The notes under the pieces are model-generated. The model was not told the origin of the DNA. It searched no databases and was given only the letters and a program-made list of their open reading frames with translations. A DNA stretch of 64,000 nucleotides, from NCBI GenBank assembly GCA_032821775.1, contig JAVLRN010000008.1:620001-684000 (forward strand), given 5' to 3'. A program made the translations under genes and the position numbers. This DNA is from Sanguinoderma infundibulare (Eukaryota > Basidiomycota > Agaricomycetes > Polyporales > Polyporaceae). Numbering within the stretch: the stretch's first letter is position 1; each line of letters begins with the position of its first letter. Positions 1-38,559 of the stretch are shown one piece after another.

Positions 1-200
1 CTGCACCCCCATTCATGCCTTCACGGGCGTCATCTGTCTTTCCGACAGAGATTTACGAACCGGTCATCGACTCCGTACATGATGCGGTCTACTACAGACG
101 GATCTTCGCGCTCAAGAACTGCATGCTGATGTGTCGCGCCTGGTTGCCACGGAGCCGCCTTCACCTCTTCCAGCTCCTTTCCCTTGTAAACGTCAGTCGC
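1..200 (+). pseudogene. F-box protein relic, copy 1
   Basis: The frame contains an F-box-like start (TEIYEPVIDSV) followed about 30 residues later by CRAWLPRSRLHLFQ, the usual opening of Agaricomycete F-box proteins, which recruit targets to SCF ubiquitin ligases. After about 60 residues the similarity stops and the frame runs into unrelated sequence, with no leucine-rich-repeat tail of the several hundred residues expected. The window begins inside this relic; its initiator ATG can be inferred from copies 2 and 3. I read it as a 5' fragment, not a working gene. Confidence 0.65.
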
Positions 201-389
201 ACCGCTGCTCGTAGGCCCTGCGACAACTGCTCAACTGCCTCGTCGACGTCTCTCTGCGTCCCACTAAAGCACGCATCCACCGCAACAGCACCGTTCCCTC
301 TCCCTTGACGTCCGCACTCTCTATCCGAAGCGACGCCTCTTTCAGCAGCTCCATCCTGTCCACCGACTCCTCTTGCCCGTCGCACCACG

Positions 390-845
390 ATGTCGAACCC
401 ATTTGTCTTTCTCTCAGAGAACGAGCTCCCCACGGACGCTTGCATCACGGCCCTTCTCCGCAAAGCAGACAAAGACTTTCCGCTGCCAAGCATCAACATC
501 AGAAATGCTAGAAGGCTGACGTCCAACCTCGTCCTCAAGACCACCTCTCTCTTCCCTTCCCGCGCCGAAGTCGAAGCTATGCAGTTCGTTGCCAGCCACT
601 GCCCACAGATCATCGGCCCGCGTGGTCACCGCTACTGGGAGTCTGGCGGCAGGGTTTACATCGTGGACTACATCGAGGGGGAGATGTACGCCAAGGTCAT
701 GCGTCGTCTCTCTCTCTCTGCAACGGCAATAGTCCGTCATGTGGACGCTGGTCAGATACGTCGCCGACCTCCGCCGCCGCATTCCCCAATCGCATTCACA
801 GACACAAAGTCTCCCGCACGCTGCTCTGTTTCCGCGTCCATGTGA
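390..845 (+). pseudogene. APH-like kinase relic, copy 1
   Basis: A 151-codon frame starting MSNPFVFLSENELPTD. It has the N-lobe signature of the aminoglycoside-phosphotransferase-like proteins common in Agaricomycetes: a strand ending LVLKTTSLFPSRAEVEAM, then a histidine-containing segment, then YIVDYIEGE, which corresponds to the hinge (normally YIVMDYIEGE; the methionine is missing). The frame ends soon after the hinge, so the catalytic HxD loop and the Mg-binding Asp are not in this frame. Further coding-looking scraps (1,100-1,330 and 1,390-1,440) lie downstream in other frames. I take it as a broken gene; its natural substrate class is unknown. Confidence 0.6.
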
Positions 846-1783
846 GTGATCCGCTTCCTAATACGCCCATAAACACATGCTCACCCTGTCATCCAAAGTG
901 GCTGCCGTGATGCCCCGACCGTCCTTCCCACTACGTACCCCCACATGATGCGGCGGCTTGGAGAGAAGCGGGTCAAATGTTATGCCAGGTTGGAGGGCGA
1001 TGGGCGATGGGCGATGGGCGGTTTATCTAAACGTGAGTACGTCCGCAATCGCCCGACCCTCCTTGCGCACCATGTACCCTCCGACCCCGCCAGGACTATG
1101 CGACCGGAGCGTTCACAGAGAGCCTTGCGGACCTCTTGCTCTCCTCAGCAAGGGACCTGGTCCGTACGCACTTCGCTTCAGAACCGGTGCTGTTCCCAAT
1201 CACGTCGGGGACGCTGCCCTGCGCAGAACACAGAGCGCGATCAACAAACAGGCTGACAAGTTGCGCCAAACATCTGTACGTACCCCAGGATGTGGCACGT
1301 GGATTGGACGGCGAGGGTCACCATGACCTCGGTTGTTTGCACGTCGAGCGCGACGGCCAAGAGGTGAGTACAGATAGAGTGCAGGAGCTGATCATGTCGT
1401 CTTCCCCCTTCTTGACAGCCTTTATACATTTTGTCCGAGACTGCGCACGGACCGCCGACGCGCTCTCGCCCTCGCCCTCGTTCCATCTTCCAACTCCGTT
1501 TCCGACCACCGGCATTGTGTCCCTGGCGTCCCGTCTCGCTTCCCGCAACCGAGCTCCTTCCGTCCAAGCGCACGCATATCTCCAAACACCCGAACGGCAT
1601 GCATATTGCACATCGGCCCAGCCCTTTGTCTCGCCCGCCCCCCGCCCACCGACCAATTTCACGGAGGCGGTCCACCGCCTAGTCATCACACGGCGATCGC
1701 ACCACCGCATACACCCGTGACGAACCGCCTGCAAACGTTGGCGCGGCGGTGACACCATCAAGGAGCTCCCGCACGCGATCTTC

Positions 1784-2029
1784 ATGAACCGGCGCATCCC
1801 CGACGACTCTGGCAGCGGCTGCAAGCAGCTCTACCGCGCCATGAACGGCTACAACATCTTGGCCGACGACGCTCCACCGTCCGCACTCGCTCTCGCGGCC
1901 GTCCGAGACGTTTTGAAAGTGCTGCCCAAAGACACGACCCTTTGCACGACGGATTCCGACTTTTTTGATTTCGCCTCAGACGGCCCGGGCATCGATTCGC
2001 GTGGGTTCGGGCAACGTTCGTGGAACTAG
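1784..2029 (+). CDS. Unassigned 81-codon frame, copy 1
   Basis: An open frame with balanced composition, starting MNRRIPDDSGSGCKQLYRA and containing VRDVLKVLPKDTTL and DSDFFDFASD. Several codons upstream of the ATG (ending KELPHAIF) stay open, so it may be the middle of a larger broken gene. I do not recognise the family. It is conserved in all three copies with a few replacements (for example T to M and D to G near residues 57-59), which could mean drift and not selection. Whether it is expressed is unknown. Confidence 0.3.
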   Translation: MNRRIPDDSGSGCKQLYRAMNGYNILADDAPPSALALAAVRDVLKVLPKDTTLCTTDSDFFDFASDGPGIDSRGFGQRSWN

Positions 2030-2482
2030 GATGCACGATCTGAGGTCGATACGAGCATATGGGAGCGGGGGAGATGCAATTTCGAAGGTCGGGACCTCCA
2101 ATTTTTGTCGTAACTTACTCTGTATGGTTCTATTCTTACAGAAATAAAGTGTTTCGTGGTCTCGTGCATGTTTGTAAACATGTGAGACAGTTTCGGCGGT
2201 GGTCGGACGGGATTGACAAAGTCGCGTTTTCTTGCGATTCCATGGGGGCCGAAAATGCGCATCCGCTCCCGCCCGCAGTTCGCATCGGGGTGCCGAGCGG
2301 AATGTTTCTATGGGCTCTGGGGATCGTGTACGACGCTTGTGACGCGTTCGTACCATTGCCGGTCGACTTTTTGAAAGTCGGGTCTTGGCGGTGGGCGGGC
2401 ACGGGTGGCACATATGGTCTCCCAGCCGCGCTCCGCTATTGGCGGTCATTCTGACTGTCGTGCATGACTCTTACAGGCCCAC

Positions 2483-2819
2483 ATGCAACGTCCATCAAGT
2501 ACTCGAGACCCCACGCGAAGTTTCAGGATGAGCGGACGGCCCGACGGCTCATATGCAGTACGTCCTCTTGAGTGCCTTCGGAGCATTCTCTGTGTTAACA
2601 GTCTCCAAACCACAGCGCTCACAAGTCCAAAGGATTTCGGCGAAGACCAATGGGGCCAATACCAGTCACCGACGGAACTCGAGATGCGCGTATACCATCG
2701 GCTAGTCCACATCCGAGACCAGAGGGAACGGTACGAGGATATCCCGGACGAGATCTGGACCCACCTCGTCTTCAGCCTCACCACGCGGTTCCGCCTCCGT
2801 GTGCAAGCGAAGAGCGCCT
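2483..2819 (+). pseudogene. SAC3/GANP relic, 5' part, copy 1
   Basis: The frame contains DQWGQYQSPTELEMRVYHRL, then HIRDQRERYEDIPDEI and FSLTTRFRLRVQAKSA. These are the conserved opening helices of the SAC3/GANP/THP3 family, whose members act in nuclear mRNA export (TREX-2) and related PCI-domain complexes. After RLRVQAKSA the family sequence stops abruptly; the following residues do not belong to SAC3 and the frame ends at 3,025. The expected acidic/hydrophobic PCI helices are missing. The gene resumes at 4,029 after an insertion, so this is the upstream half of an interrupted relic. Confidence 0.7.
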
Positions 2820-4071
2820 CGGCATGCGCAGATGAAAACAAGCGTCGGCTCGAAGGAGGTTCCGAAGTGCACACTGTTCTCGCGGTGCCTGGCTTAAACA
2901 CGGGAGACTCATCCACCGCGGATCCAAAAATACGAAAAAAGCGCCGCCCAAGTGGAGCAGTCGACTGTCATCGTCTCGCAGGGCGTCGAACGAGGGTGTC
3001 TTATCCATTTCAGACTGCGCTCTAGGTCTAGGCAGCTCGCGCGCGGGGAACCCAAGGACGCAAATCCGATTGTGCTGTCCACGCGTTGATGTCATCCACC
3101 CAACCATCGCGTCCCGCGAAAGTATAGCTCGAGTGCACCCAGACGTCGCTACACGATTAGACTTTGCAACTCTGCACGAAACGCAGGAGCGCACCGCGCC
3201 TCTCCGTTTTTGAGAAGCTGGCGGCGGCGGCCCCCACACGACGCAAGAAGGAAGACGAGGCCTGGCGGGTGGCAGCTGTGCACGGCAACGTCAACGAAGT
3301 TCGGGGCGAGCATTGTGTGCCCATTAATTCAACCCCCATGCCTCAACCGCTTTCCTGACCTGCATCGACCCCGCACTCATCGAGCAGGCATGCACCCCCG
3401 AAGCCGAGATCCGGGAACTCGAGCAGAAGGAGTATGGGGACGAGAACAAGGAGTTCGCAGAGGACGACAACCCGATCTGCCGACGGTCGACGGGGAGCAT
3501 CTTCGCGTGGCACAGCTCGGACCAGCTCGCCTCAACGGGCATCCTTTACATCATCCTTGCGCTCATCATGGTGGAAGGATGCACGATGAAGGATGGTACG
3601 CGTGTTTTCGCTGCATTGCACCGCACGGAGTACACTCACACATTGTGCTCTGCTCCAGTTGACCTGCGCAGGATTCCCGAACAGCTGCAGCTGCCCGTGA
3701 ATGCCCGGATCCCGCTCAGCAGCCAAGCGACGGCCCAGCCCGTCACGATCGATGCGTACCTCACGCAGGTCATGCGTCAGGGCTACTTCGAGAAGCACCG
3801 CATCGGCACTGCTGCAGGTAAAGGCGGAGCGAAGCGTGCGCGCGCCGCCCAGGCCCCTGCAGGCGACGACCAGCTCTAGGCGTACGAGCGGTGGTGGGGC
3901 GCGTGGGCGCTGGCGGAGGTGGGCGAGCGGGCGATCGCGCAGTTTGTCATGGATGTCATGGCGGGCACGCTGCTCGGCCAGCAGGAGGAGGATGGGGAGG
4001 AGGATGCGGTGGGCACGGCGGGCGACGACTCACCACGCGGTTCCGCCTTTGCGTGCAAGCGAAGAGCGCCT
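2777..4071. repeat. 43-bp direct repeat flanking the SAC3 insertion, copy 1
   Basis: The 43-bp segment at 2,777-2,819 (encoding LTTRFRLRVQAKSA) recurs at 4,029-4,071 (encoding LTTRFRLCVQAKSA) with two base differences. Between the two lie about 1.2 kb of foreign sequence: an unassigned part (2,820-3,354), then an nse3 fragment. The layout resembles a target duplication or a template-switch insertion into the SAC3 gene. Outside the 43 bp the two flanks continue into different parts of SAC3. Confidence 0.8.
3355..4028 (+). pseudogene. nse3 (MAGE) 3' fragment inserted in SAC3, copy 1
   Basis: This stretch encodes the C-terminal half of the MAGE-domain gene annotated on the minus strand elsewhere in the unit, in inverted orientation and about 85-90% similar at the protein level. 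It runs from DPALIEQAC through WHSSDQLASTGILYV and MRQGYFEKHR to AVGTAGDD. The parental third intron is still present (donor after MKDG, acceptor before VDLRRI), so it arose by DNA copying, not from mRNA. A TAG at 3,877-3,879 replaces a glutamine codon of the parent gene, and the fragment lacks exons 1 and 2. It joins the SAC3 repeat directly at 4,029. Confidence 0.85.
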
Positions 4072-5860
4072 TGATCACGATGGTCTCGAAACACTCTGTG
4101 GACGCCGACGCGATGGAGATCGCGACGTCGAGTGCCTTCTCGGTGTTCGGCTCATCTGGATCTACGTTCCCTTCGTCCTCCAGTGCACCCGCTACATCGG
4201 CGTTTGGGAACTTCGCGGCCAAGCCCAACGTATTCGGAGGCGCAACTTTCGAGCCTGCGTCTAGCACATTTTCGTTGCATCGTCTGTTGCACCCACAGTT
4301 TCGCTACCGAAGCCACCCGGGAGCCTCGTTAGCATTCCATTAGTCCCCCCACATCAACCACAGCATGCATCACTGACGCAACCCACGATTCCACCCCCAG
4401 TTCCTACCAAACCATCCTTACCTGTTGCCCCCGAACAACCCTTCACTGCGCCTTTCCAAAACCCCTCCCACATCTTCGAGTGGCGGCAGTTGGCATGGGA
4501 ATTTCGGGCTCGTCGTCTCCCTTCTCTCGCCTCAAGGAAAAACGCATGACATCACCCCAACACTGGGCAACGCCCCAGAACCACGCACACCTATATCCCC
4601 GACTGCCGGTCCACCTGCTCTCGGATGGCTTCCCGCTGTTGCGCTTCCTCCCACGCCCACCGTGCGGTGGTTCGACCCTGGCTCGCAAGCCGAAGAATCC
4701 GATTCCGCCCTTTCGCGCAAGAAGTCGCTCCTCCACTTCCCCTCACTCACCATTCCGACGCCAAACGCGCCCGAGATCCTGAGCCTTATACACCTCACGA
4801 TGCCCGTCCCCACCAAGAACGCCAGCAGACCCTCGCTGCTGTTCCAGTCTCGTCAAGCTTCCGGCGCATCCACTTCGACTTCGACACCGCCAAAAGCCAG
4901 GACAGTATCATCAGCGAATGGGAAAGGCAAGGCGAAGGAGACCCGGGCTGACCTCAACACTATGGCGATAGGCTTCCTGCGTACGAGCGTGCTCGTGCAC
5001 GACTGCTGGAGCCTCTGGCACGCGCGAATGGAGGCGGAGCGCAGTGGGAGGAGGCATGCAGACGGAGCGTGGTATGCCGGAACAGGGACGTCGTGAACAG
5101 CGTAGGGCGCGACAAGCGGAGGAAGAAGAGGCGGATATCGGTGCCGACGCTGGAAGAGGCGCATGCGAAGCGGAGACAGTGGGAGCAGTCCGAGAGGCCG
5201 CTGATGGACGAGGCACTCGCTCGGCGGTCACAGGAGGTGCGTCTTTGTTCTGATGGATGGGGAGCTGATTTGATTCGTCATGGTCGCGCGTAGAACCGGG
5301 AGGAGATCGAGAAGCGGTGGGCCCAGGGCTTGTTCCGGCAAACAGTGCTTGAGTGGCTGAAGGCGCGACTGGAGCCCGGGGACGAGCTGGACATTTGGTG
5401 CGTGTGGGTGTCGACGAACACGGAGAACGACAACACGGCGGTGTGGGTGGAGTGCAAGTTTGATGTTCCCTCGTCAGAATACTAGGTGTCAGAGAATGTC
5501 CTCTCAATACCGGCGTTCAACAGACCAGGTGTCAACGACGAGATCCCAAGGTAAGCATTATGACTAGCAGTTCATAGTCCGGTCGGTTGACAACAGTGTA
5601 TGGCGTTGTAGGAAATATCGCATCCCCGACAACCATGACGTCCTCGAGGCACTACATCCCGTGTCTGCTTGTCATCGACTGGTCTGAGAACGAGGACGCC
5701 GAGAAGGCGAGAGACTTGGTCGGCATGGCATGTCATTCCTCGATACGCTGTATCGCGTTAGATTGCTTACCATTCGTCCAGACTGCATCATCATGCTTGA
5801 TCGTACCGTCCGCGACCCTGTTGTTGTATGTCCGCTACTAAGTAGAAACCGACTGACTGA
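4029..5860 (+). pseudogene. SAC3/GANP relic, 3' part, copy 1
   Basis: Continuation of the SAC3 relic, spread over several frames. In order: RLCVQAKSA followed by VDADAMEI; the FG-like stretch FGSSGSTFPSSS and ATSAFGNFAAKPNVFGG; after a frameshift near 4,275 a proline-rich part ending NPSHIFEWRQLAWEFRARR; a stop near 4,548; then NSVGRDKRRKKRRISVP (about 5,090-5,145), KRWAQGLFRQTVLEWLKARL, IWCVWVSTNTENDNTAVWVE and a stop after SSEY at 5,484-5,486; and LLVIDWSENEDAEKA (5,665-5,710). The PCI core between the repeat and the FG part is deleted. Frameshifts, stops and the deletion make this a clear pseudogene. The exact 3' limit is uncertain. Confidence 0.75.
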
Positions 5861-7426
5861 TTGTTATGCAGGCTTGGGCCGATGCCAAGGCTCTGCCGGT
5901 CTGACTCACCATTTACGTTCACCCATTCAGCGGCTCCGGGTGGGATCTGGCCGGGAAAGCCCAGGTCGTCACCGTCATACACACACCGGACCGCTCAAGG
6001 TTCTCGGCCCCCACCAAAGCACCTCGACGCAAGGGGGCATCAAGATCACGCTCGGGAGATCAGGGCATTTAGTTTCCGACCCGACGGACCCGGGAGCCGT
6101 GCACGGAACACTGAGCAGTAAGCGAAAATGGGCGCGAGCGGGACAGCCGCATGCGCAGTAATTACCGTTGTGTATGTTTGATTGCGGAGGCTGCGCCCGA
6201 AGCTCTGGACCATCTCCGCATGCGGTGTTCATGCGCTACATTGAATGCCCAGGATCCCACGCAAATCCTGGGGCCCGGGGGACCTGATCGGCGACTAGGA
6301 GAGTGAATGCCGAGCCTGTCGTGTGCAGAGGTTAATTACTGAGTTACTGTTACGCCGGGTACGCCTGTTCCTTGTTCCTCTCTAGTATAAAATTATACCG
6401 GCGAAATGTAGATCTGTCGGACTCCATTCCGCGCGATTAAGGTTGTCGCTTGCTCGTATGGTCTGATATTCTGGATTTGCTGATCCACGGCCTGCGTAAA
6501 TCGACTGCGCTGGGATTCGAGACCCAGGTGATACGCTGCCGTCTCGGAATTCATCCGTAATATACCGTCATGATCCGAGGGTGGTGTGATACTTTGCATT
6601 TGCTTGGGCGAGTTGTCGCCAGCACTCAATCACATTGGCTCTCTCCTCACCGTATGCCTCTCTCATCACACCCTCTCCTCTATGCCATGTCATCGTCGCT
6701 GCACCGCCTGAGTAACCACGCCCTGAACGAACACTCTTCCGCTGGCCCATCGTCAGCTTGCGAAGATCACTTTCACGGAGTATGGAAATGTACGCTTCAG
6801 CTCTTTCATAGCATTCCCGAGCTCTATGCATGCTGAACTCCAATCCTTTTCTCGTTCACTGATTCGCACTCCCACATGGGACACATATCCTGCGACCAGG
6901 TGAACTCGTATCGACTGCCCTGAAGCCCGAGGTGCCTACCATCCTGGCCGACAGTGGGGACCTGATCATGCTCGGGAAGAACGTCGGCCACAACGTCTGC
7001 CTCGTACGTCCCACGGTCGTCATGCACATACAGCTGATCTTGAGCGGGGACGCCCTCAGCAGGCACCCTCCCCCTCGCTGGGATCACTCGAAGCAGAACC
7101 CGCTACCCCCGGTCCAGTCACCGATAACTCGCAATCGCAGCCACCACCACATGAACGTGATGCTAACAAGACAGAGGCCGCTACAGCGTGTTCCTGCCCT
7201 CGCCCCAGTCCTCGTCCTTGAGCTCGGACAGCGAGTCTGAGGTCCAAGAGATATCGCCTCCTCCGTCTCCCCAGCGGGACCCCGCACCCTCATTCCCTCT
7301 GTCGACCTCGTCATTCAGCGGAGTCCGTCCGTTTTGCTGCGACTCGATTCCCCTAGGTGCACGCCTCCATTTGCTGCAGCAAATCCTACCCCCAATCCAC
7401 ATCGCGGACTCTCCCGAGCCGGAATA
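5861..7426. other. Unassigned part of block B, copy 1
   Basis: No recognisable gene. On the plus strand a coding-looking scrap at 6,900-7,040 reads ALKPEVPTILADSGDLIMLG, and a serine/proline-rich frame begins at 7,188 (SSDSESEVQEISPPPSPQRD). On the minus strand two overlapping short frames (6,393-6,629 and 6,568-6,843) could be parts of one broken helical protein (HRARECYERAEAYISILRES). None has a complete domain. The same content recurs at 18,512-20,077 and 31,163-32,728. Confidence 0.4.
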
Positions 7427-8254
7427 CTACCCGCCGCCTGTTGAGGCGTTCTCGTTCCAGGAGATCCACGTCGAAGGCGGTGCAGTGGTCGAGGAAGAAG
7501 CTCCACGCTCCTCCCATCTGTCGCTCGCCACACCCGCACAGACTTGTTGGACGACGGGCTTGCGACGTACATGGCGTCGAACGAAAACAACGCCACGTGC
7601 GTGCGGTCCGTGTGTCCGTGGAGCTGCCTCACCCCTCGATGCACGTCGCTGAGGAGGTCGCCGCGGAAGAGCTTCAGGTTCGCGGTGGGGCCGGTCGAGC
7701 CAGAGACGAGCTGCACCGCGAGGACGCGCACCGGTCCGTCGTGCGCGTGGAGCGTCGCGAGCACCTTGCCAGTTTTGATGTTCCAGATCCGCACGGTGCC
7801 GTCGTCCGACGTGGTCGCGATGCGTGCGTCCGCTGCGTCCAATGAGGCACAGCACACCATCGCGTCGTGGTTCTTGAGCTCCTTGTGCAGCGCGCCCGAC
7901 TCCATGTTCCAGAGCCTGCAGATACCGTCGGTGCCGCCGCTCGCGAGGCGCCGCGCGGTGGCCGGCGATGTCGTGCAGGCAATCGTACGTCTGGTCATCC
8001 CAGATCCACACGGTGCCGTTGTCCGAGCCCGATGCGAGCTTGCTGTCGTCCTGGGACCAGGCGAGAGTGCGGACGGGCTGCGAGCGGCCGGTGAGAGTAG
8101 CGAGGAGCTCGCCACTGCTGGCATCCCAGATCATGATGTGGCCTGGGTCGCCAGATGAGGCGAAGCGGGTGCTGTCAGGGGAGACGGCGAGGGTGGGGAC
8201 GTGTCTTTCTTTGGAGACTCCCATATCCTGAGGACGCCGATTGAGTCCCGACAT
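7427..8254 (-). pseudogene. WD40-repeat protein relic, copy 1
   Basis: Reading from 8,254 downwards, the frame encodes WD40 blades: LAVSPDSTRFASSGDPGHIM with IWDASSGELLATL, then LAWSQDDSKLASGSDNGTV with WIWDDQTYDCLHDIAGH. Near 7,955-7,975 the frame shifts by one and about ten residues of the next blade (the strand before RRLASGGTDG) are missing. The other frame then continues CRLWNMESGALHKEL, IATTSDDGTVRIWNIKTGKV and VRVWRATDGRSVELLP. About five blades are visible, fewer than the seven or more of a closed propeller. WD40 proteins are scaffolds, so no specific role follows. The lesion and missing blades point to a pseudogene. Confidence 0.75.
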
Positions 8255-10694
8255 GGATCTCTCCTCAAGCTGCGGACCCTGACCTTCACACCGCGATTAG
8301 GCCTGGGAGGAGCATCCCATCATCTGCGGCTGGCCGCGCACCCCCTCAGTGGTTTCCGAGTCTCCTGAGCCACACCAGCCGAGCGTGGTCGAGTCGCAGC
8401 CGGTCCACCAGCGTGAGGTGATCGAGATCAGCGATGATGATTGTGGTATGTCCTCTCTCGAGGTTGCTATGAGTACGCCCGTCGAGGGCAGTGAGGAAGC
8501 TCGTCCAGCCGAGGAGGGTTCCGAGGTTGAGATGGTGGACACAGTGTTCGGCGGCGCGGAGTCTATCCGGAGTCCTCCAGATGACCTCGCTCTGTGAATG
8601 TGAGTGAGCCGTGCAGATGTGAAGTCGTCCGGGAGCGATACGCGTCACTTTCGGATGCGGAACTTGATGCTCGTATAGGAGCTCTTCGACCCACCTGGAA
8701 CGCGTTGAAGGGCTTCAAACCTGCCAACTCGAACGTCAGCTTAGCAGGTGTGAAGCGGGCAGGCCAGAATGCCAGCTGTACATGGGAACAGACATTCTGC
8801 GCTAATCGCGGAGACGCATAGAGTTGTAGGGCGATATACGACAAGTTCCGAGACCAGCACACAAGTTCCCAGAGGATGCCAGCGAGGTGAGGCCCAAGCA
8901 AACTCCAGCGCAAGTGCTGACAAGTCCCAAGCCCTCAGAGACGAGTTTATCTGGAACATAGCAGCGGCGGCGAGAGACGACATGGGGGAGATGGTGGTGG
9001 CGGTGGCAGAAGGAGACTCGGAGGCAGGCGCGGGATCTCGCATCTCGCTTGAGAGCCAGATAGGCGCCCGTGGACTTGAACGTGTTTCTGCGTCGGCGTC
9101 CCTCGTTTTTACTTGCTCGGTCGTAGATCCTTTCGGTGTATTTCTGTCTTGAACGCTTGCTTTCCTTTCTCTCGTTTTCGACAGCCTCTGCCCGACGCCG
9201 CCACCAGTTGACATGAATATGCGTCCCTCCGGGTGTACTGACGCAGACCTACCCTCCGTCTCCAATACCACCCTGTTGCCAATATAGCCCTCTATCGCCA
9301 ATACCACCCTCTCTCGCCAATATAGCCCCCCCAGAGAATACTGACTTGAACCTACCATCCTCTGAGAATACACCCTCCTCTGAGAATACACCCTCCATCT
9401 CCAATACAGTCCCCCACAAGAGTACTGAGGCAAGTGATCGATCCGGGAGATTTCAGCACAGATGTGCATCCGCCTATCAACCGCGCCCCGTCCGCCGCAC
9501 GCCCGGCATCTCGACGCATGCACACCAAGACTCGCATCGCCTACGAGACAAAGCAAGCTACTCGGCACATTATGAGCGCAAAAACAAACGATGCGGAAGA
9601 ACTTGGAGACGAATCGGTGACCCCGAGTGCTAACTTGTGGTAAGGGACATGTTGCGAACATGAGGCGATGAGAGCCTAGGCGCAGGGGCCACACGTCCGC
9701 TGCCACTTGTTCCTCGCCGCCATAGCCCACGCGTCCTTGGCCGTAGAATCCTACACTAGAAGCTCAGCCTTTGAGATTCGATCGTTGCCACGCCTTGCGG
9801 TCAACAATCCCAGTGCTCGCCACTGGCTCCCAATATGTCCTCGGATAACGAGCGCGCCAGACGTACGACCAACTTTAACCCGTGCGTCCAGGCCCAAGTC
9901 GATCCAGGATTGGACGCCTGTCTACGTTGAAATGAAAATAGAGGACGGCTTATTTGACGAGAGGATGGAAGAATGGCTCGAACTCATCCGAAATCTTCAC
10001 GGGTTTGGCTACGCCAGATGTTTTGTCAGTGCCGCCTTCAGTGGGTAGACTGTCGGCGTGCGTAAAGGGCCTACCACGCGTTTCGCATTGGCTGCCCTTG
10101 ATGCCCCTGCTTCAACACCAACCAGCGTGAGGAGTACCCGGTCACTGTGGACACGAGGCCATGCCATCCACGGGTCTTGGCATTGGTCGCTGCTAGATAA
10201 ATGGGCTAGGTGATGGAAAGAGATCGGCACGAGAACCGCGACGCAAAGCAAGTCAAACTAACCTCGCATTTAATATCTTCGGGATGAGAAGCAAGCAATC
10301 AGTGAGTACTAATGATATCGTCGACGACAAAAGGGGGGAAAGGTGATGCACTGGCGGAGGCAAGTCACAAAATTAGCCCGTCTGCAAGCGTCAGGTCAAG
10401 ATCAGTGTTGTACCAACCTTTGATACGGTGTAATTTCGCGTGCCCTGTTGATGGCGCAGGGATCTGCTTGCGCAAGTACACTATGTATACACTATCACGA
10501 ATGAAGGACACGACAAAATCATGATCAATGTAGGCATTGTACGGAATCCACCAAACCGGCTTCGTTATATCTACAACAACCAAGTAAACCTTTTCAATAT
10601 AAGCTAAAGCACTACTCACGCACGGAGCATTATTACACTATAAGGCGACCATGACCGAGCACGACCACGAAAGACACTCATACCTTCTCATCAC
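8255..10694. other. Gene-poor part of block B, copy 1
   Basis: Contains no gene I can name. Short frames with protein-like composition are present: 8,349-8,597 plus (acidic, with VIEISDDD), 8,594-8,821 plus (SLSDAELDARIGALRPTWNA), 9,707-10,048 plus (WTPVYVEMKIEDGLFDERM) and 10,365-10,619 minus (VYLVVVDITKPVWWIPYNA). The last sits just beyond the nse3 stop codon on the same strand. All are identical in the other two copies (20,906-23,345; 33,557-35,996), which gives no information on constraint because the copies are so young. Confidence 0.4.
9252..9415. repeat. Degenerate 18-19 bp minisatellite, copy 1
   Basis: About four units of the form GCCAATA(C/T)(C/A)(C/G)CCCT with small spacers, an interruption near 9,330-9,356, then two perfect units of CTCTGAGAATACACCCTC and a final unit of the first type. 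On the plus strand it reads PSSENTPSSENTPS, which inflates reading frames in this area. Confidence 0.8.
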
Positions 10695-27785: not shown

Positions 27786-28122
27786 ATGGAACGTCCATCA
27801 AGTACTCGAGACCCCACGCGAAGTTTCAGGATGAGCGGACGGCCCGACGGCTCATATGCAGTACGTCCTCTTGAGCGCCTTCAGAGCATTCTCTGTGTTA
27901 ACAGTCTCCAAACCACAGCGCTCACAAGTCCAAAGGATTTCGGCGAAGACCAATGGGGCCAATACCAGTCACCGACGGAACTCGAGATGCGCGTATACCA
28001 TCGGCTAGTCCACATCCGAGACCAGAGGGAACGGTACGAGGATATCCCGGACGAGATCTGGAACCACCTCGTCTTCAGCCTCACCACGCGGTTCCGCCTC
28101 CGTGTGCAAGCGAAGAGCGCCT
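27786..28122 (+). pseudogene. SAC3/GANP relic, 5' part, copy 3
   Basis: Translates identically to the fragment at 15,135, with the same interruption. Confidence 0.7.
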
Positions 28123-29373
28123 CGGCATGCGCAGATGAAAACAAGCGTCGGCTCGAAGGAGGTTCCGAAGTGCACACTGTTCTCGCGGTGCCTGGCTTAA
28201 ACACCGGAGACTCATCCACCGCAGACCCAAAAATACGAAAAAAGCGCCGCCCAAGCGGAGCAGTCGACTGTCGTCGTCTCGCAGGGCGTCGAACGAGGGT
28301 GTCTTATCCATTTCAGACTGCGCTCTAGGTCTAGGCAGCTCGCGCGCGGGGAACCCAAGGACGCAAATCCGATTGTGCTGTCCACGCGTTGATGTCATCC
28401 ACCCAACCATCGCGTCCCGCGAAAGTATAGCTCGAGTGCACCCAGACGTCGCTACACGATTAGACTTCGCAACTCTGCACGAAACGCAGGAGCGCACCGC
28501 GCCTCTCCGTTTTTGAGAAGCTGGCGGCGGCGGCCCCCACACGACGCAAGAAGGAAGACGAGGCCTGGCGGGTGGCAGCTGTGCACGGCAACGTCAACGA
28601 AGTTCGGGGCGAGCATTGTGCACCCATTAATTCAGCCCCCTGCCTCAACCGCTTTCCTGACCTGCATCGACCCCGCACTCATCGAGCAGGCATGCACCCC
28701 CGAAGCCGAGATCCGGGAACTCGAGCAGAAGGAGTACGGGGACGAGAACAAGGAGTTCGCAGAGGATGATAACCCGATCTGCCAACGGTCGACGGGGAGC
28801 ATCTTCGCGTGGCACAGCTCGGACCAGCTCGCCTCAACGGGCATCCTTTACGTCATCCTTGCGCTCATCATGGTGGAAGGATGCACGATGAAGGATGGTA
28901 CGCGTGTTTTCGCTGCATTGCACCGCACGGAGTGCACTCACACATTGTGCTCTGCTCCAGTTGACCTGCGCAGGATTCCCGAACAGCTGCAGCTGCCCGT
29001 GAATGCCCGGATCCCGCTCAGCAGCCAAGCGACGGCCCAGCCCGTCACGATCGATGCGTACCTCACGCAGGTCATGCGTCAGGGCTACTTCGAGAAGCAC
29101 CGCATCGGCACTGCTGCAGGTAAAGGCGGAGCGAAGCGTGCGCGCGCCGCCCAGGCCCCTGCAGGCGACGACCAGCTCTAGGCGTACGAGCGGTGGTGGG
29201 GCGCGTGGGCGCTGGCGGAGGTGGGCGAGCGGGCGATCGCGCAGTTTGTCATGGATGTCATGGCGGGCACGCTGCTCGGCCAGCAGGAGGAGGATGGGGA
29301 GGAGGATGCGGTGGGCACGGCGGGCGACAACTCACCACGCGGTTCCGCCTTTGCGTGCAAGCGAAGAGCGCCT
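28080..29373. repeat. 43-bp direct repeat flanking the SAC3 insertion, copy 3
   Basis: Repeat arms at 28,080-28,122 and 29,331-29,373, identical in layout to copy 2. Confidence 0.8.
28657..29330 (+). pseudogene. nse3 (MAGE) 3' fragment inserted in SAC3, copy 3
   Basis: Identical to the fragment at 16,006; nonsense codon at 29,179-29,181. Confidence 0.85.
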
Positions 29374-31162
29374 TGATCACGACGGTCTCGAAACACTCTG
29401 TGGACGCCGACGCGATGGAGATCGCGACGTTGAGTGCCTTCTCGGTGTTCGGCTCGTCTGGATCTACGTTCCCTTCGTCCTCCAGTGCACCCGCTACATC
29501 GGCGTTTGGGAACTTCGCGGCCAAGCCCAACGTATTCGGAGGCGCAACTTTCGAGCCTGCGTCTAGCACATTTTCGTTGCATCGTCTGTTGCACCCACAG
29601 TTTCGCTACCGAAGCCACCCGGGAGCCTCGTTAGCATTCCATTAGTCCCCCCACATCAACCACAGCATGCATCACTGACGCAACCCACGATTCCACCCCC
29701 AGTTCCTACCAAACCATCCTCACCTGTTGCCCCCGAACAGCCCTTCGCTGCGCCTTTCCAAAACCCCTCCCACATCTTCGAGCGGCGGAAGTCGGCATGG
29801 GAATTTCGGGCTCGTCGTCTCCCTTCTCTCGCCTCAAGGAAAAACGCATGACATCACCCCAACACTGGGCAACGCCCCAGAACCACGCACACCTATATCC
29901 CCGACTGCCGGTCCACCTGCTCTCGGATGGCTTCCCGCTGTTGCGCTTCCTCCCACGCCCACCGTGCGGTGGTTCGACCCTGGCTCGCAAGCCGAAGAAT
30001 CCGATTCCGCCCTTTCGCGCAAGAAGTCGCTCCTCCACTTCCCCTCACTCACCATTCCGACGCCAAACGCGCCCGAGATCCTGAGCCTTATACACCTCAC
30101 GATGCCCGTCCCCACCAAGAACGCCAGCAGACCCTCGCCGCTGTTCCAGTCTCGTCAAGCTTCCGGCGCATCCACTTCGACTTCGACACCGCCAAAAGCC
30201 AGGACAGTATCATCAGCGAATGGGAAAGGCAAGGCGAAGGAGACCCGGGCTGACCTCAACACTATGGCGATAGGCTTCCTGCGTACGAGCGTGCTCGTGC
30301 ACGACTGCTGGAGCCTCTGGCACGCGCGAATGGAGGCGGAGCGCGGTGGGAGGAGGCATGCAGACGGAGCGTGGTATGCGGGAACAGGGACGTCGTGAAC
30401 ATCGTAGGGCGCGACAAGCGGAGGAAGAAGAGGCGGATATCGGTGCCGACGCTGGAAGAGGCGCATGCGAAGCGGAGACAGTGGGAGCAGTCCGAGAGGC
30501 CGCTGATGGACGAGGCACTCGCTCGGCGGTCACAGGAGGTGCGTCTTTGTTCTGATGGATGGGGAGCTGATTTGATTCGTCATGGTCGCGCGTAGAACCG
30601 GGAGGAGATCGAGAAGCGGTGGGCCCAGGGCTTGTTCCGGCAAACAGTGCTTGAGTGGCTGAAGGCGCGACTGGAGCCCGGGGACGAGCTGGACATTTGG
30701 TGCGTGTGGGTGTCGACGAACACGGAGAACGACAACACGGCGGTGTGGGTGGAGTGCAAGTTTGATGTTCCCTCGTCAGAATACTAGGTGTCAGAGAATG
30801 TCCTCTCAATACCGGCGTTCAACAGACCAGGTGTCAACGACGAGATCCCAAGGTAAGCATTATGACTAGCAGTTCATAGTCCGGTCGGTTGACAACAGTG
30901 TATGGCGTTGTAGGAAATATCGCATCCCCGACAACCATGACGTCCTCGAGGCACTACATCCCGTGTCTGCTTGTCATCGACTGGTCTGAGAACGAGGACG
31001 CCGAGAAGGCGAGAGACTTGGTCGGCATGGCATGTCATTCCTCGATACGCTGTATCGCGTTAGATTGCTTACCATTCGTCCAGACTGCATCATCATGCTT
31101 GATCGTACCGTCCGCGACCCTGTTGTTGTATGTCCGCTACTAAGTAGAAACCGACTGACTGA
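29331..31162 (+). pseudogene. SAC3/GANP relic, 3' part, copy 3
   Basis: Translates identically to the copy at 16,680, with all the same frameshifts and stops. Confidence 0.75.
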
Positions 31163-32728
31163 TTGTTATGCAGGCTTGGGCCGATGCCAAGGCTCTGCCG
31201 GTCTGACTCACCATTTACGTTCACCCATTCAGCGGCTCCGGGTGGGATCTGGCCGGGAAAGCCCAGGTCGTCACCGTCATACACACACCGGACCGCTCAA
31301 GGTTCTCGGCCCCCACCAAAGCACCTCGACGCAAGGGGGCATCAAGATCACGCTCGGGAGATCAGGGCATTTAGTTTCCGACCCGACGGACCCGGGAGCC
31401 GTGCACGGAACACTGAGCAGTAAGCGAAAATGGGCGCGAGCGGGACAGCCGCATGCGCAGTAATTACCGTTGTGTATGTTTGATTGCGGAGGCTGCGCCC
31501 GAAGCTCTGGACCATCTCCGCATGCGGTGTTCATGCGCTACATTGAATGCCCAGGATCCCACGCAAATCCTGGGGCCCGGGGGACCTGATCGGCGACTAG
31601 GAGAGTGAATGCCGAGCCTGTCGTGTGCAGAGGTTAATTACTGAGTTACTGTTACGCCGGGTACGCCTGTTCCTTGTTCCTCTCTAGTATAAAATTATAC
31701 CGGCGAAATGTAGATCTGTCGGACTCCATTCCGCGCGATTAAGGTTGTCGCTTGCTCGTATGGTCTGATATTCTGGATTTGCTGATCCACGGCCTGCGTA
31801 AATCGACTGCGCTGGGATTCGAGACCCAGGTGATACGCTGCCGTCTCGGAATTCATCCGTAATATACCGTCATGATCCGAGGGTGGTGTGATACTTTGCA
31901 TTTGCTTGGGCGAGTTGTCGCCAGCACTCAATCACATTGGCTCTCTCCTCACCGTATGCCTCTCTCATCACACCCTCTCCTCTATGCCATGTCATCGTCG
32001 CTGCACCGCCTGAGTAACCACGCCCTGAACGAACACTCTTCCGCTGGCCCATCGTCAGCTTGCGAAGATCACTTTCACGGAGTATGGAAATGTACGCTTC
32101 AGCTCTTTCATAGCATTCCCGAGCTCTATGCATGCTGAACTCCAATCCTTTTCTCGTTCACTGATTCGCACTCCCACATGGGACACATATCCTGCGACCA
32201 GGTGAACTCGTATCGACTGCCCTGAAGCCCGAGGTGCCTACCATCCTGGCCGACAGTGGGGACCTGATCATGCTCGGGAAGAACGTCGGCCACAACGTCT
32301 GCCTCGTACGTCCCACGGTCGTCATGCACATACAGCTGATCTTGAGCGGGGACGCCCTCAGCAGGCACCCTCCCCCTCGCTGGGATCACTCGAAGCAGAA
32401 CCCGCTACCCCCGGTCCAGTCACCGATAACTCGCAATCGCAGCCACCACCACATGAACGTGATGCTAACAAGACAGAGGCCGCTACAGCGTGTTCCTGCC
32501 CTCGCCCCAGTCCTCGTCCTTGAGCTCGGACAGCGAGTCTGAGGTCCAAGAGATATCGCCTCCTCCGTCTCCCCAGCGGGACCCCGCACCCTCATTCCCT
32601 CTGTCGACCTCGTCATTCAGCGGAGTCCGTCCGTTTTGCTGCGACTCGATTCCCCTAGGTGCACGCCTCCATTTGCTGCAGCAAATCCTACCCCCAATCC
32701 ACATCGCGGACTCTCCCGAGCCGGAATA

Positions 32729-33556
32729 CTACCCGCCGCCTGTTGAGGCGTTCTCGTTCCAGGAGATCCACGTCGAAGGCGGTGCAGTGGTCGAGGAAGA
32801 AGCTCCACGCTCCTCCCATCTGTCGCTCGCCACACCCGCACAGACTTGTTGGACGACGGGCTTGCGACGTACATGGCGTCGAACGAAAACAACGCCACGT
32901 GCGTGCGGTCCGTGTGTCCGTGGAGCTGCCTCACCCCTCGATGCACGTCGCTGAGGAGGTCGCCGCGGAAGAGCTTCAGGTTCGCGGTGGGGCCGGTCGA
33001 GCCAGAGACGAGCTGCACCGCGAGGACGCGCACCGGTCCGTCGTGCGCGTGGAGCGTCGCGAGCACCTTGCCAGTTTTGATGTTCCAGATCCGCACGGTG
33101 CCGTCGTCCGACGTGGTCGCGATGCGTGCGTCCGCTGCGTCCAATGAGGCACAGCACACCATCGCGTCGTGGTTCTTGAGCTCCTTGTGCAGCGCGCCCG
33201 ACTCCATGTTCCAGAGCCTGCAGATACCGTCGGTGCCGCCGCTCGCGAGGCGCCGCGCGGTGGCCGGCGATGTCGTGCAGGCAATCGTACGTCTGGTCAT
33301 CCCAGATCCACACGGTGCCGTTGTCCGAGCCCGATGCGAGCTTGCTGTCGTCCTGGGACCAGGCGAGAGTGCGGACGGGCTGCGAGCGGCCGGTGAGAGT
33401 AGCGAGGAGCTCGCCACTGCTGGCATCCCAGATCATGATGTGGCCTGGGTCGCCAGATGAGGCGAAGCGGGTGCTGTCAGGGGAGACGGCGAGGGTGGGG
33501 ACGTGTCTTTCTTTGGAGACTCCCATATCCTGAGGACGCCGATTGAGTCCCGACAT
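32729..33556 (-). pseudogene. WD40-repeat protein relic, copy 3
   Basis: Exact translated copy of the relic at 7,427, frameshift included (about 33,257-33,277). Confidence 0.75.
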
Positions 33557-34553
33557 GGATCTCTCCTCAAGCTGCGGACCCTGACCTTCACACCGCGATT
33601 AGGCCTGGGAGGAGCATCCCATCATCTGCGGCTGGCCGCGCACCCCCTCAGTGGTTTCCGAGTCTCCTGAGCCACACCAGCCGAGCGTGGTCGAGTCGCA
33701 GCCGGTCCACCAGCGTGAGGTGATCGAGATCAGCGATGATGATTGTGGTATGTCCTCTCTCGAGGTTGCTATGAGTACGCCCGTCGAGGGCAGTGAGGAA
33801 GCTCGTCCAGCCGAGGAGGGTTCCGAGGTTGAGATGGTGGACACAGTGTTCGGCGGCGCGGAGTCTATCCGGAGTCCTCCAGATGACCTCGCTCTGTGAA
33901 TGTGAGTGAGCCGTGCAGATGTGAAGTCGTCCGGGAGCGATACGCGTCACTTTCGGATGCGGAACTTGATGCTCGTATAGGAGCTCTTCGACCCACCTGG
34001 AACGCGTTGAAGGGCTTCAAACCTGCCAACTCGAACGTCAGCTTAGCAGGTGTGAAGCGGGCAGGCCAGAATGCCAGCTGTACATGGGAACAGACATTCT
34101 GCGCTAATCGCGGAGACGCATAGAGTTGTAGGGCGATATACGACAAGTTCCGAGACCAGCACACAAGTTCCCAGAGGATGCCAGCGAGGTGAGGCCCAAG
34201 CAAACTCCAGCGCAAGTGCTGACAAGTCCCAAGCCCTCAGAGACGAGTTTATCTGGAACATAGCAGCGGCGGCGAGAGACGACATGGGGGAGATGGTGGT
34301 GGCGGTGGCAGAAGGAGACTCGGAGGCAGGCGCGGGATCTCGCATCTCGCTTGAGAGCCAGATAGGCGCCCGTGGACTTGAACGTGTTTCTGCGTCGGCG
34401 TCCCTCGTTTTTACTTGCTCGGTCGTAGATCCTTTCGGTGTATTTCTGTCTTGAACGCTTGCTTTCCTTTCTCTCGTTTTCGACAGCCTCTGCCCGACGC
34501 CGCCACCAGTTGACATGAATATGCGTCCCTCCGGGTGTACTGACGCAGACCTA

Positions 34554-34717
34554 CCCTCCGTCTCCAATACCACCCTGTTGCCAATATAGCCCTCTATCGC
34601 CAATACCACCCTCTCTCGCCAATATAGCCCCCCCAGAGAATACTGACTTGAACCTACCATCCTCTGAGAATACACCCTCCTCTGAGAATACACCCTCCAT
34701 CTCCAATACAGTCCCCC
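34554..34717. repeat. Degenerate 18-19 bp minisatellite, copy 3
   Basis: Same length and same units as at 9,252 and 21,903. Confidence 0.8.
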
Positions 34718-35996
34718 ACAAGAGTACTGAGGCAAGTGATCGATCCGGGAGATTTCAGCACAGATGTGCATCCGCCTATCAACCGCGCCCCGTCCGCCGC
34801 ACGCCCGGCATCTCGACGCATGCACACCAAGACTCGCATCGCCTACGAGACAAAGCAAGCTACTCGGCACATTATGAGCGCAAAAACAAACGATGCGGAA
34901 GAACTTGGAGACGAATCGGTGACCCCGAGTGCTAACTTGTGGTAAGGGACATGTTGCGAACATGAGGCGATGAGAGCCTAGGCGCAGGGGCCACACGTCC
35001 GCTGCCACTTGTTCCTCGCCGCCATAGCCCACGCGTCCTTGGCCGTAGAATCCTACACTAGAAGCTCAGCCTTTGAGATTCGATCGTTGCCACGCCTTGC
35101 GGTCAACAATCCCAGTGCTCGCCACTGGCTCCCAATATGTCCTCGGATAACGAGCGCGCCAGACGTACGACCAACTTTAACCCGTGCGTCCAGGCCCAAG
35201 TCGATCCAGGATTGGACGCCTGTCTACGTTGAAATGAAAATAGAGGACGGCTTATTTGACGAGAGGATGGAAGAATGGCTCGAACTCATCCGAAATCTTC
35301 ACGGGTTTGGCTACGCCAGATGTTTTGTCAGTGCCGCCTTCAGTGGGTAGACTGTCGGCGTGCGTAAAGGGCCTACCACGCGTTTCGCATTGGCTGCCCT
35401 TGATGCCCCTGCTTCAACACCAACCAGCGTGAGGAGTACCCGGTCACTGTGGACACGAGGCCATGCCATCCACGGGTCTTGGCATTGGTCGCTGCTAGAT
35501 AAATGGGCTAGGTGATGGAAAGAGATCGGCACGAGAACCGCGACGCAAAGCAAGTCAAACTAACCTCGCATTTAATATCTTCGGGATGAGAAGCAAGCAA
35601 TCAGTGAGTACTAATGATATCGTCGACGACAAAAGGGGGGAAAGGTGATGCACTGGCGGAGGCAAGTCACAAAATTAGCCCGTCTGCAAGCGTCAGGTCA
35701 AGATCAGTGTTGTACCAACCTTTGATACGGTGTAATTTCGCGTGCCCTGTTGATGGCGCAGGGATCTGCTTGCGCAAGTACACTATGTATACACTATCAC
35801 GAATGAAGGACACGACAAAATCATGATCAATGTAGGCATTGTACGGAATCCACCAAACCGGCTTCGTTATATCTACAACAACCAAGTAAACCTTTTCAAT
35901 ATAAGCTAAAGCACTACTCACGCACGGAGCATTATTACACTATAAGGCGACCATGACCGAGCACGACCACGAAAGACACTCATACCTTCTCATCAC

Positions 35997-38273
35997 TCAT
36001 CGCGCCTCGAGCAACTGACCCCCCGCCGCAGCGCGCTCGATGCCCTTGAAGATGACCTGCACCCGCCTCTGCGTGCCCTCATCGCCCGCCGCGCCCACCG
36101 CGTCCTCCTCCCCGTCCTCCTCCTGCTGCCCGGGCAGCGGGCCAGCCATGAACTCCGCGACGAACTGCGCGATCGCGCGCTCGCCCACCTCCGTCAGCGC
36201 CCGCGCGCCCCACCGCCACTCGTACGTCTGTAGCTGGTCGTCGCCTGCGGGGGCCTGCGTACCGCGCGCGCGTTTCGCGCCGCCTTTGCCTGCGGCGGTG
36301 CCGACGCGGTGCTTCTCGATGTAGCCCTGGCGCATGAGCTGCGCGAGGTACGCGTCGATCGTGACGGACTGTGCCGTCGCTTGGCTGCTGAGCGGGATCG
36401 GGGCGTTCACGGGCAGCTGCAACTGTTTAAGGATCCTGCGCAGATCAACTGGAGCAGAGCACCACGTGTGAGTGCACTCCGTGCGGTAGAATGCAGCGAA
36501 AACACGCGTACCGTCCTTCATCATGCGTCCTTCCACCAGGATGAGCGCAAGGACGACGTAAAGGATGCCCGTTGAGGCGAGCTGGTCCGAGCTATGCCAC
36601 GCGAAGATGCTCCCCGACGACCGCTGGCCGATCGGGTTGTCGTCCTCGGCGAACTCCTCGTTCTCGTCCACGTGCTCCTTCTGCTCGAACTCCCGAATCT
36701 CCGCGTCGGGCGCGCATGCTTGTTCTATGAGCGCGGGGTCGAGGAGGGAGCAGAGGATGTACGATTTTGTGCCGGTCTGTGCAGCTACGAGGTGATCAGC
36801 AAATGAAACCAGCGGAACGCGAGGCATCGATGAAATGCGAAAATAGGATGAGAGACGAGAGGTAAAGGCAGGTCATAAGATGCTTGGTGAACGTTGCGTT
36901 GGGTCTCCGATACAAGCCGCAGGCGAGTGGCACTGACCGGCTAGTCACTGCGGGCTGGCTGCATGCGCGCACCCGTGCGGTTGATTTGTCCAGCACAAGG
37001 GACAGTCGAGCGCACCTACCAGCCCCTCACGCTCGACCCCAACTCCGTCGGCTACGATATCATCCTCGGTGATGCCTTCTTGCGCAACGACTACGCCTCG
37101 CGAGTGCTGCAGCCACGGAATCCTCCAACTTCCTGCTTGCTAACCCTTGTGCATCGCACAGCTTCGATTACGGTGACTACCACCCAGCCAACCACACGAA
37201 CGGACTCCCGTTCGTGCAGATGCTTAGCACGACTAACACCTCCACGATGTGGGCCGAGTTCTCCGCTCAGCGTAACGTCACCCTCGCGAAGCTCCCATCG
37301 GAAATCGACCCGCTCACCGCAGTCGCGTTCTACGGGAAACTGGACCAGAGCAGTTTGAGCAACTCGATGAACTCGGGCGTCCTCTCGGTCACCGGCGCGG
37401 TGTCCTCCTCCGATGGCTCGGCGGACGGCGGGGACACTACTGCGCGCGAGTGATCCGTGACGCTCGTCGGGTGCATGCTTCACAGGAAAGGATAGAAGGA
37501 GTAGGCACGGGTGTGCGCGTTCGAAAGAACGAGCAGGGAGTTAGATCGCGTGTGCGAGGACTAAGACGGCGGTGCCAAGGGAAGGCCAGGTTGCTTGAAC
37601 GAGATGGCTTTCACATTCCCTTTCCGCCTCCGTGAAAGGGCCGGTCCGGCGACAGCAAGTGCGAGATACCCCCTAATCGCTTGCCAACTCCCCTGGCAAT
37701 TCCAATCGTACGCAGCAGAGTGTAAAGCTCACCTTTCTTCTTGACACCAGTGTTCTTCAACAGGTCCGCGTCCTTGTCGCTCATGTCCTTATCAGAAGGC
37801 ATGGCCTGCATCTCGACAAGCTCCATCCCAAAGGTCTTATGGAGGATTTGGTTCGCAGCAGTAAGGATCGCATTGAACGTGCGCGTGCCTGTGCCCAAAA
37901 CTAAAGAAAACACGTTCAATGGTCAGGACAACGCGCAATGATGATAAGGCGCACCTTTCTTGGATATCTCATCCCTCCTCAGCGGCAGCCTCCGCTGTTC
38001 GTGGAAGAGGGCAAGGCGGACCAAGTCGCGCGCCTTCTTGTCGATCTCCTGCAGGCGATGAGCGCGTTGGCGGGGTGTGCGCGAGCGGAGTATCGAGCGA
38101 CTCACCCCTTCGACCTTGTCTCCTCCGTCCTCATCATCGTACGCGTCCTGTGCGGCCTGGTGTTCTTCGGGCTGTTCCTCTACCTGCGCCCGTCGCGAAC
38201 GTCCTTGAGTGGCACGCGGTGGCTGCGATTGAGATGCTTGGGGTGCACGTTGAGAACGGGTTTGTCTGACCAT
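35997..38273 (-). CDS. nse3: MAGE-domain protein (Smc5/6 subunit Nse3-like), copy 3, start intact
   Basis: The best candidate for the working gene. Exons 38,273-37,955, 37,900-37,733, 36,784-36,512 and 36,448-35,997 give 403 residues with ATG at 38,273. Introns 1 and 3 are 54 and 63 bp; intron 2 is 948 bp against 300 bp in the other copies because of a 653-bp insertion. Splice sites remain canonical (intron 2 donor GTGAGC, acceptor GTAG). The MAGE domain covers about residues 78-370 with winged-helix segments ARDLVRLALFHEQRRLPLRR, FNAILTAANQILHKTFGMEL and IDAYLAQLMRQGYIEKHRV. The C-terminus ends VIFKGIERAAAGGQLLEAR. The protein differs from copies 1 and 2 by scattered replacements (for example EEHQAAQDAYDD against EEGQAAQDGYDD). 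Confidence 0.85.
36804..37456 (+). pseudogene. A1 aspartic protease 3' fragment inside nse3 intron 2
   Basis: This 653-bp block is absent from the same intron in copies 1 and 2, where GATCAGCAAA is followed directly by GACGCT. Its right two thirds encode the end of an A1 (pepsin-type) protease: LDPNSVGYDIILGDAFLRN, then after an apparent GC-AG intron (about 37,090-37,153) FDYGDYHPANHTNGLPFVQM and a serine-rich tail ending in a stop at 37,451-37,453. The ILGDAFLRN strand is the classic C-lobe motif. Both catalytic Asp motifs lie upstream in such enzymes and are not present. The retained intron argues for a DNA-level insertion. It lies antisense to nse3. The first 150-200 bp of the insert are unassigned. 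Confidence 0.75.
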
Positions 38274-38559
38274 GACCAGTGATTTGGGTACAGATCCGTT
38301 GTCAGTAGCTAGCGGCAGAAAGGTCAAGAGAGTCCAAGTCCAAGTCGACGCCGTCTGGAAGCCAGTCACACGCGTTCGCGTCGCGTGTATCGCGCCATTA
38401 CGTAAGCGTGGTGGCATCACAATACTGCAAAGTCGGACTCGGAGCTGGCAGCGCCGCTCTCCTCGTACTGCTGTTGTTGGAATCATAACACACGGATTCC
38501 AGAGCTAATTATGAACCTTCGAGCAATCAACCAACGATGCATGGACGCCTAGCCTTCCG

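Follow-up and report, generated by a model that had tools for sequence, protein, structure and literature searches.

A spacer element shared by gene-bearing tandem arrays in the genome of Sanguinoderma infundibulare

An NSE3-bearing tandem array on contig C8

The DNA analysed here, referred to throughout as the window, is a 64,000-nucleotide stretch of the basidiomycete Sanguinoderma infundibulare (assembly GCA_032821775.1, contig JAVLRN010000008.1, here C8:620001-684000), from a genome of 48.9 Mb in 87 contigs. Its first 38,406 positions hold the right end of a tandem array in which a host segment, designated H and carrying a gene predicted to encode NSE3, the MAGE-domain subunit of Smc5/6, alternates with a 9.7-kb spacer, designated E, whose relatives are found in arrays at other loci of the same genome. 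The strain, Cui 17238, is described as dikaryotic (PMC10989896), and all copy numbers given here are as assembled.

In a self-comparison of the window, an offset of 12,651 bp spans positions 5,101-36,084 almost without mismatch: positions 5,101-23,433 (18,333 bp) differ from the next unit at 3 sites, and at the double offset 5,682 bp match with 0 mismatches. Both the coordinates and the period given in the initial annotation, made from the letters of the window, were thus right. That annotation also described three tandem copies; the repeat is indeed real and near perfect, but the trio is only the right end of a larger array, and a simple triplication is rejected. When the unit was compared with 200 kb of neighbouring sequence, the array was found to cover 116 kb (C8:542168-658406) and to hold nine units, with a left partial at C8:542168 and unit starts at 545537, 558109, 570323, 582538, 595143, 607786, 620001, 632649 and 645300. 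Hence 78 kb of the array lies to the left of the window, and its right end falls inside the window at position 38406. The three units within the window, all on the plus strand, are U7 (1-12648, C8:620001-632648), near identical to U8 beyond position 5100 and diverged from it by 1-3% over positions 1-5,100; U8 (12649-25299, 12,651 bp); and U9 with the right edge (25300-38406). U9 has 2 differences from U8 in its first 1.4 kb and stays close to it until 36084, after which it passes into a diverged NSE3 copy. This terminal part (36,085-38,406) is also array sequence, with about 96% identity up to 36,803 and 92.6% from 37,459, the intervening 655 bp (36,804-37,458) being absent from the internal units.

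The two native flanks define what is repeated. At the left native flank, homology to the unit sets in at unit position 9531, and at the right one it stops at 12458; because both edges fall there, H (unit 9531-12458) is present n+1 times and E n times. The structure at C8 is therefore H-(E-H)9, in which H is 2.93 kb of host DNA with NSE3/MAGE and stands at both outer ends. Within the window, H occupies positions 9528-12455, 22179-25106 and, at the right edge, 34830-38406, where it continues into native sequence, with the gene on the minus strand in each case. In the first of these copies the start position (12323) reads ACG and the stop codon ends at 10695; in the second, the five exons run from 24974 to 23346, again with ACG at the start position; and in the right-edge copy an ATG is found at 38273.

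Assignment of this gene to NSE3 accords with the Smc5/6 subunit gene named in the initial annotation: the predicted product matches the MAGE homology domain PF01454 at 61.2 bits in U8 and 64.3 bits at the right edge (cut-off 25) and is 78% identical to a Ganoderma adspersum protein. All ten sense copies keep the same five-exon frame of 1,155 bp, with no stop and with GT..AG at every intron, although intron 3 measures 948 nt at the right edge, 548 at the left edge and 300-304 in the internal copies. The ratio of nonsynonymous to synonymous divergence (dN/dS) is 0.11-0.31 among six distinct classes, the U7/U8 pair excepted, which differs by one silent change, and by this measure the copies are under purifying selection. 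The start position is ATG in four copies and ACG in the other six, so that non-AUG initiation is possible; between two of the classes with ACG there are 13-14 silent and 5 replacement changes. The status of the ACG starts apart, the complete frames and the dN/dS values lead us to reject the sense copies as pseudogenes. The pseudogene debris that had been noted in the unit is nonetheless present in part, as an inverted NSE3 fragment on the plus strand with an in-frame TAG, about 87-88% identical to the sense copies (15985-16680, also 3334-4029 and 28636-29331). Complete NSE3 genes were found only in the C8 array. A broken relative (74-78%) lies about 76 kb to the right of the array at C8:734727-735583, and further fragments are located on C6 and C10.

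Pairwise comparison of the units revealed blocks with 0 differences alternating with blocks up to 7.5% apart. Across nine compared blocks, for example, U3 and U6 differ at two bases; a tract of 25,215 bp is repeated at an offset of 37,463 with 4 mismatches. Such mosaics are the expected residue of unequal crossing-over and gene conversion, and since the units are mosaics with shifts of both 12.65 kb and 37.46 kb, unequal exchange has been active at C8, the one array to which this statement applies. The near-identical trio is the most recently homogenised end of the array, in keeping with the recent event or homogenisation proposed at the outset. Of the NSE3 copies, the one at the right edge has diverged most: its synonymous divergence (dS) is 0.059-0.077 to the others versus 0.004-0.051 among the internal classes.

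The spacer element E and its relatives at other loci

In the window, E is represented by plus-strand copies at 12456-22178 and, in the next unit, 25107-34829, with edges set by the native junctions (unit 9531 and 12458). Probes of 2 kb and 1.2 kb from the C8 unit and of 2.5 kb from C13 were searched across the genome contigs; copy counts from these searches are lower bounds, the best 40 or so candidates having been scored. Ladders of E-core matches were recovered from at least six other loci, namely on C22, C13 (two arrays on opposite strands), C5, C1 and C3, and further ones from four small contigs, C48, C51, C58 and C75; neighbouring copies lie about 9.6 to 14.4 kb apart. E occurs as a single copy at C3 near 3.89 Mb. 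This region (C3:3880935-3907149, one E) and C22:1-112828 (eight E) are apparently the same locus, represented twice either by the two nuclei or by an assembly split. The two C13 arrays (672359-734969, minus strand, and 757214-782747, plus strand) lie in opposite orientation about 22 kb apart, and their cores are about 88-90% identical.

Four arrays were read: C8, 30 kb of C22, and roughly a single period in each of C13 and C5. The E blocks of C22, C13 and C5 are 68-89% identical to C8 and mostly 69-92% identical among themselves. On the plus strand of the window, core blocks lie at 14033-14199 (71-72% to the other arrays), 14517-15153 (73-74%), 18608-19359 (several blocks, 70-78%) and 21529-21780 (68-72%), and block order is the same in all four arrays, except that C8 has one block, about 90-125 bp long, inverted and displaced. 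A 25-mer from the core has 41 matches within 3 mismatches, all at H-E loci or array contigs. The host genes differ among the three other arrays. H of C22 contains aspartate-semialdehyde dehydrogenase and RNase PH-type exons, and that of C5 an F-box-like frame, just below the curated cut-off, with ATG7 N-terminal coding sequence. In the C13 unit, H carries a frame resembling O-methyltransferases and E one resembling short-chain dehydrogenases, each just below the Pfam cut-off. In the four arrays read, the host gene adjoining the E 3' end is oriented tail to end, a number too small to carry weight.

The structure at C8 predicts one extra H in the other arrays too. This held at each locus counted, five of five when C8 is included, and H always stands on both outer sides: the H and E copies number 10 and 9 at C8, 6 and 5 in the minus-strand array of C13, 5 and 4 at C5, 3 and 2 at C1, and 2 and 1 at C3 near 3.89 Mb. 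At C3 near 4.15 Mb a repeat inside the unit is found three times against two E, which fits the rule by a measure other than a direct count of H. Native flanks were read on both sides at C8 and on one side each at C5 and C13. Two simple models are rejected on these counts: were E bordered by recombining transposon copies, E and not H would remain at the array ends, and plain tandem duplication of an E-containing segment would give equal numbers of H rather than n+1. Recombination between two copies of E likewise fails to yield H-E-H.

The 3' border of E is nearly constant. With a border probe from C5, similarity ends at positions 105-107 in C3, the plus-strand array of C13, two units of C22, C48, C51 and C75, and with one from C22 it ends at positions 382-388 in C5, the same C13 array, C3, C48, C51 and C75. 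Relative to this end, H starts with a 7-8 bp overlap at C5 and farther out elsewhere, about 14 bp beyond it at C13, about 31 bp in C22 and C3, and about 50 bp in C8. On the E 5' side, the first 25 bp or so are common to C1 and C5, and the position of the 5' end is approximate.

Just within the 3' end, across arrays, lie an imperfect minisatellite of 18-20 bp and the 22-bp motif GATCGATCCGGGAGATTTCAGC. In C8 the minisatellite has a period of 18-19 bp (21902-22059, also 9251-9408 and 34553-34710) and lies shortly before the motif (22087-22108, also 9436-9457 and 34738-34759), all on the plus strand. At the motif, 22 consecutive columns are identical in four arrays, a run attained by 5 of 10,000 column shuffles; the conserved-column run of the central core block, by comparison, is not unusual (1,085 of 10,000). 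A genome-wide survey for the 22-mer with up to 3 mismatches returned 50 matches, and a reversed-pattern control returned 0. Thirty-four matches are exact, all of them at E loci, five carry two mismatches and are all in C22, and one is a stray on C4. The remaining ten are a variant ending TTTGCAC, which itself forms ladders at C1:138256/150145/162034 (spacing 11,889 bp), C17:186633/200161 (13,528 bp) and C31:10926/22866 (11,940 bp), with single matches at C1:212, C17:10631 and C84:6267. Short pieces of C1, C17 and C31 have the same layout, minisatellite then AGTACAGAGGCAGTTGATCGATCCGGGAGATTT. These variant ladders are absent among the core-probe matches listed, which leaves room for weak core similarity.

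The core is judged non-coding because mismatches among C22, C13 and C5 show no codon-position preference and most gaps have lengths not divisible by three. No homologue of a 252-aa core frame was found at E <= 0.001 among 1,191 candidates, and E as a coding element is rejected on both grounds. A GTGAGT...ACAG pair stands at unit 1385-1700 in the E core of C8 and at the corresponding places in C22 and C13, the C5 counterpart being GTCAGT, and looks from its sequence as if a spliced non-coding transcript had existed. A viral origin was set aside: the single exact 18-mer match to the viral_contigs set is at about chance level by our own estimate. C8 E also contains a WD40-repeat remnant on the minus strand (19969-20947; corresponding frames at 7315-8296 and 32617-33598).

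Outside the array, relatives of unit segments, 79-96% identical, are scattered 78-97 kb to its left (C8:445532-449367 and 462717-463918). To its right, fungal-type protein kinase (FunK1) frames occur on both strands (window 40032-45723 and 56527-58905), with a third, below the cut-off, at 57771-58637. Inverted similarity of 64-79% joins window 43161-45170 and 56527-58905. For a 627-aa frame in the right flank, no homologue was found among the 7,988 candidates scored.

Proposed origin of the arrays

The arrays display an H-E-H order, an E common to loci with different H, a near-constant border between E and H, and mosaic units. To judge from these sequences, E resembles a mobile element that apparently codes for nothing; its copies have a 3' end in common and carry a conserved motif. 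The best explanation, to which we give an even chance, is a circle-type entry of E plus H into the resident locus, followed by amplification. E would have become joined to neighbouring host DNA, the simplest vehicle being an excised or replicating circle, and E plus H would then have returned to its own locus through one homologous crossover inside H, so that H came to lie on either side; the target may have been the empty chromosome of the other nucleus. H-E-H is explained directly, because a single homologous crossover of such a circle into resident H yields it. Once H-E-H is established, unequal exchange needs no more than its long direct repeats, and kilobase-long H repeats would drive the unequal crossing-over and gene conversion that expand, contract and homogenise the array. 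The minisatellite and GATCGATCCGGGAGATTT module at the E 3' end could act in this process, for example as a replication-fork pausing site, an origin or an end-recognition site.

Several observations weigh against this account. Pfam searches of 28 open reading frames from the arrays (18 from U8, 2 further ones from C8 and 8 from other arrays) gave no transposase or recombinase, and neither a circle nor autonomously replicating sequence activity was seen. Circular permutation, the usual mark of circle reinsertion, is absent from the four arrays read. The ends of E are also not wholly uniform: similarity to other E ends earlier in the minus-strand array of C13 and in C1, which have shorter tails, alternate C22 units have a differing E end at which similarity stops earlier, and at the 5' side H and the core are separated by 0.16-1.6 kb of sequence that is for the most part specific to each array. 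At C8 the left-edge NSE3 copy has a dS of 0.036-0.059 to the internal classes, overlapping the internal range. E lacks coding constraint and could therefore be a passenger; that no gene is found in it favours its riding along. Finally, a long target duplication, or a tandem duplication by templated insertion, gives the same H-E-H.

This last route is the strongest competitor, plausible but less probable than entry by a circle. Insertion of E would itself have duplicated kilobases of the target, either as a very large target-site duplication or through template switching that made a tandem duplication with E copied into the junction, and no circle would be needed; H-E-H would be the direct product, unequal crossing-over would do the rest, the shared 3' end fits here as well, and the ambiguous overlap of 7-8 bp at the C5 junction is what microhomology would leave. 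The duplications would, however, have to reach 2.9 kb at C8 and at least 3.2 kb elsewhere, at every counted locus, and to our knowledge kilobase target duplications at every locus would be exceptional for a transposon. The circle route is favoured modestly over this one, and the data do not tell the two apart.

It is unlikely that the arrays reflect ordinary segmental amplification, with E a decayed repeat that happens to lie at duplicated genes and growth by unequal crossing-over alone. The mosaic units do show unequal exchange, E is free of codon constraint, the central core block has no unusual conserved run, and tandem duplication of two 10-kb regions around CYP5150 genes has been described in Ganoderma sinense (PMC4457147). 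A passenger, however, should also occur alone, whereas all 41 core 25-mer matches and all 34 exact motifs are at H-E loci or array contigs and only C3 near 3.89 Mb has a single E; the conserved run at the 3' motif likewise argues against it. E acting in array formation is favoured by its confinement to these loci and its constrained 3' end.

Selection for NSE3 dosage, a driver that would be compatible with the other explanations, has CUP1-type amplifications as a precedent, and the ten complete frames with their low dN/dS would suit it. Six of the ten copies nevertheless have ACG at the start position, and the genes or gene fragments in the other arrays read are unrelated, so that one shared cause is more economical; we regard dosage as an improbable driver of the C8 array. 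An artefact in which units of two nuclei or mis-joined reads were strung together is very improbable, for although the strain is reported to be dikaryotic (PMC10989896), one locus is seemingly present twice with one E and eight, and array units sit on five smaller contigs (C22, C48, C51, C58 and C75), the internal units form distinct mosaic classes with indels, native flanks bound the array at C8 on both sides and those at C5 and C13 on the one side read, and several loci would need to fail alike.

A further step can be proposed tentatively: E may represent an undescribed class of array-forming selfish elements, with no detected protein, that attach to host gene pieces and turn loci into arrays of 10-14 kb units. 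Such elements would end in a minisatellite and a 33-bp motif, AGTAC-N2-AGGCA-N3-GATCGATCCGGGAGATTT, and the motif-bearing end would be their active part, because the second set of ladders carries the motif although the core probes did not list it.

Significance and comparison with known systems

Tandem gene amplification is usually viewed as chance duplication followed by selection. In this genome, one element and one short end motif are common to many amplified loci, with unrelated genes in those read, and the start of an array thus becomes a testable, sequence-defined process. Such a process would explain copy-number variation of central-pathway genes, among them NSE3, aspartate-semialdehyde dehydrogenase, an RNase PH-type gene and part of ATG7. 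The genome paper records no evidence for segmental duplication and its main text does not contain the word 'tandem' (PMC10989896), and the arrays are structure where that analysis reported none. No published description of arrays of this kind was found among the open-licence papers listed. One non-coding element recurring between repeats of differing host genes suggests an element, so far undescribed, that is associated with large amplifications of genes.

Tandem arrays of the ribosomal DNA type undergo concerted evolution, and the arrays described here resemble them in their head-to-tail units of 10-14 kb, their homogenised interior, and a spacer with a minisatellite and a conserved motif. 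They differ in that Rfam matched no ribosomal RNA or other known RNA at the gathering score, whether in the window or in the pieces of C22, C13 and C5, and in occupying many loci with different genes in those read. Helitrons and other gene-capturing transposons include non-coding elements that lie beside captured gene pieces, and tandem arrangements of them are known; E likewise is non-coding and lies beside host gene pieces. In contrast to captured fragments, however, C8 holds the only complete NSE3 genes found, with H on both sides. No Helitron Rep/helicase was matched by Pfam in the 28 open reading frames, a result still compatible with a non-autonomous element. Inspection by eye of the E 3' ends of C5 and C22 showed no conserved CTRR, and in C8, C13 and C5 the start of H is not an A/T insertion site. 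A tyrosine recombinase of the Crypton/Starship type is also absent from the 28 frames searched, most arrays having been read only in part.

Among fungal amplifications, a comparable one lies around the CYP5150D27 genes of G. sinense, a 10-kb tandem duplication for which unequal crossing-over was proposed (PMC4457147). It involves a related genus and a similar unit size; it is, however, one duplication, and the account given of it reports no shared element. Another is region B of Zygosaccharomyces bailii, amplified in wine yeast by extrachromosomal circles (PMC3053389). There, too, a defined segment is amplified at several loci and a circular intermediate has been proposed, although insertion is described as non-homologous and the organisation varies from site to site (PMC3053389). 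In S. infundibulare, by contrast, H flanks E at every counted locus, the order is constant in the arrays read, and the arrays are long and have locus-specific genes.

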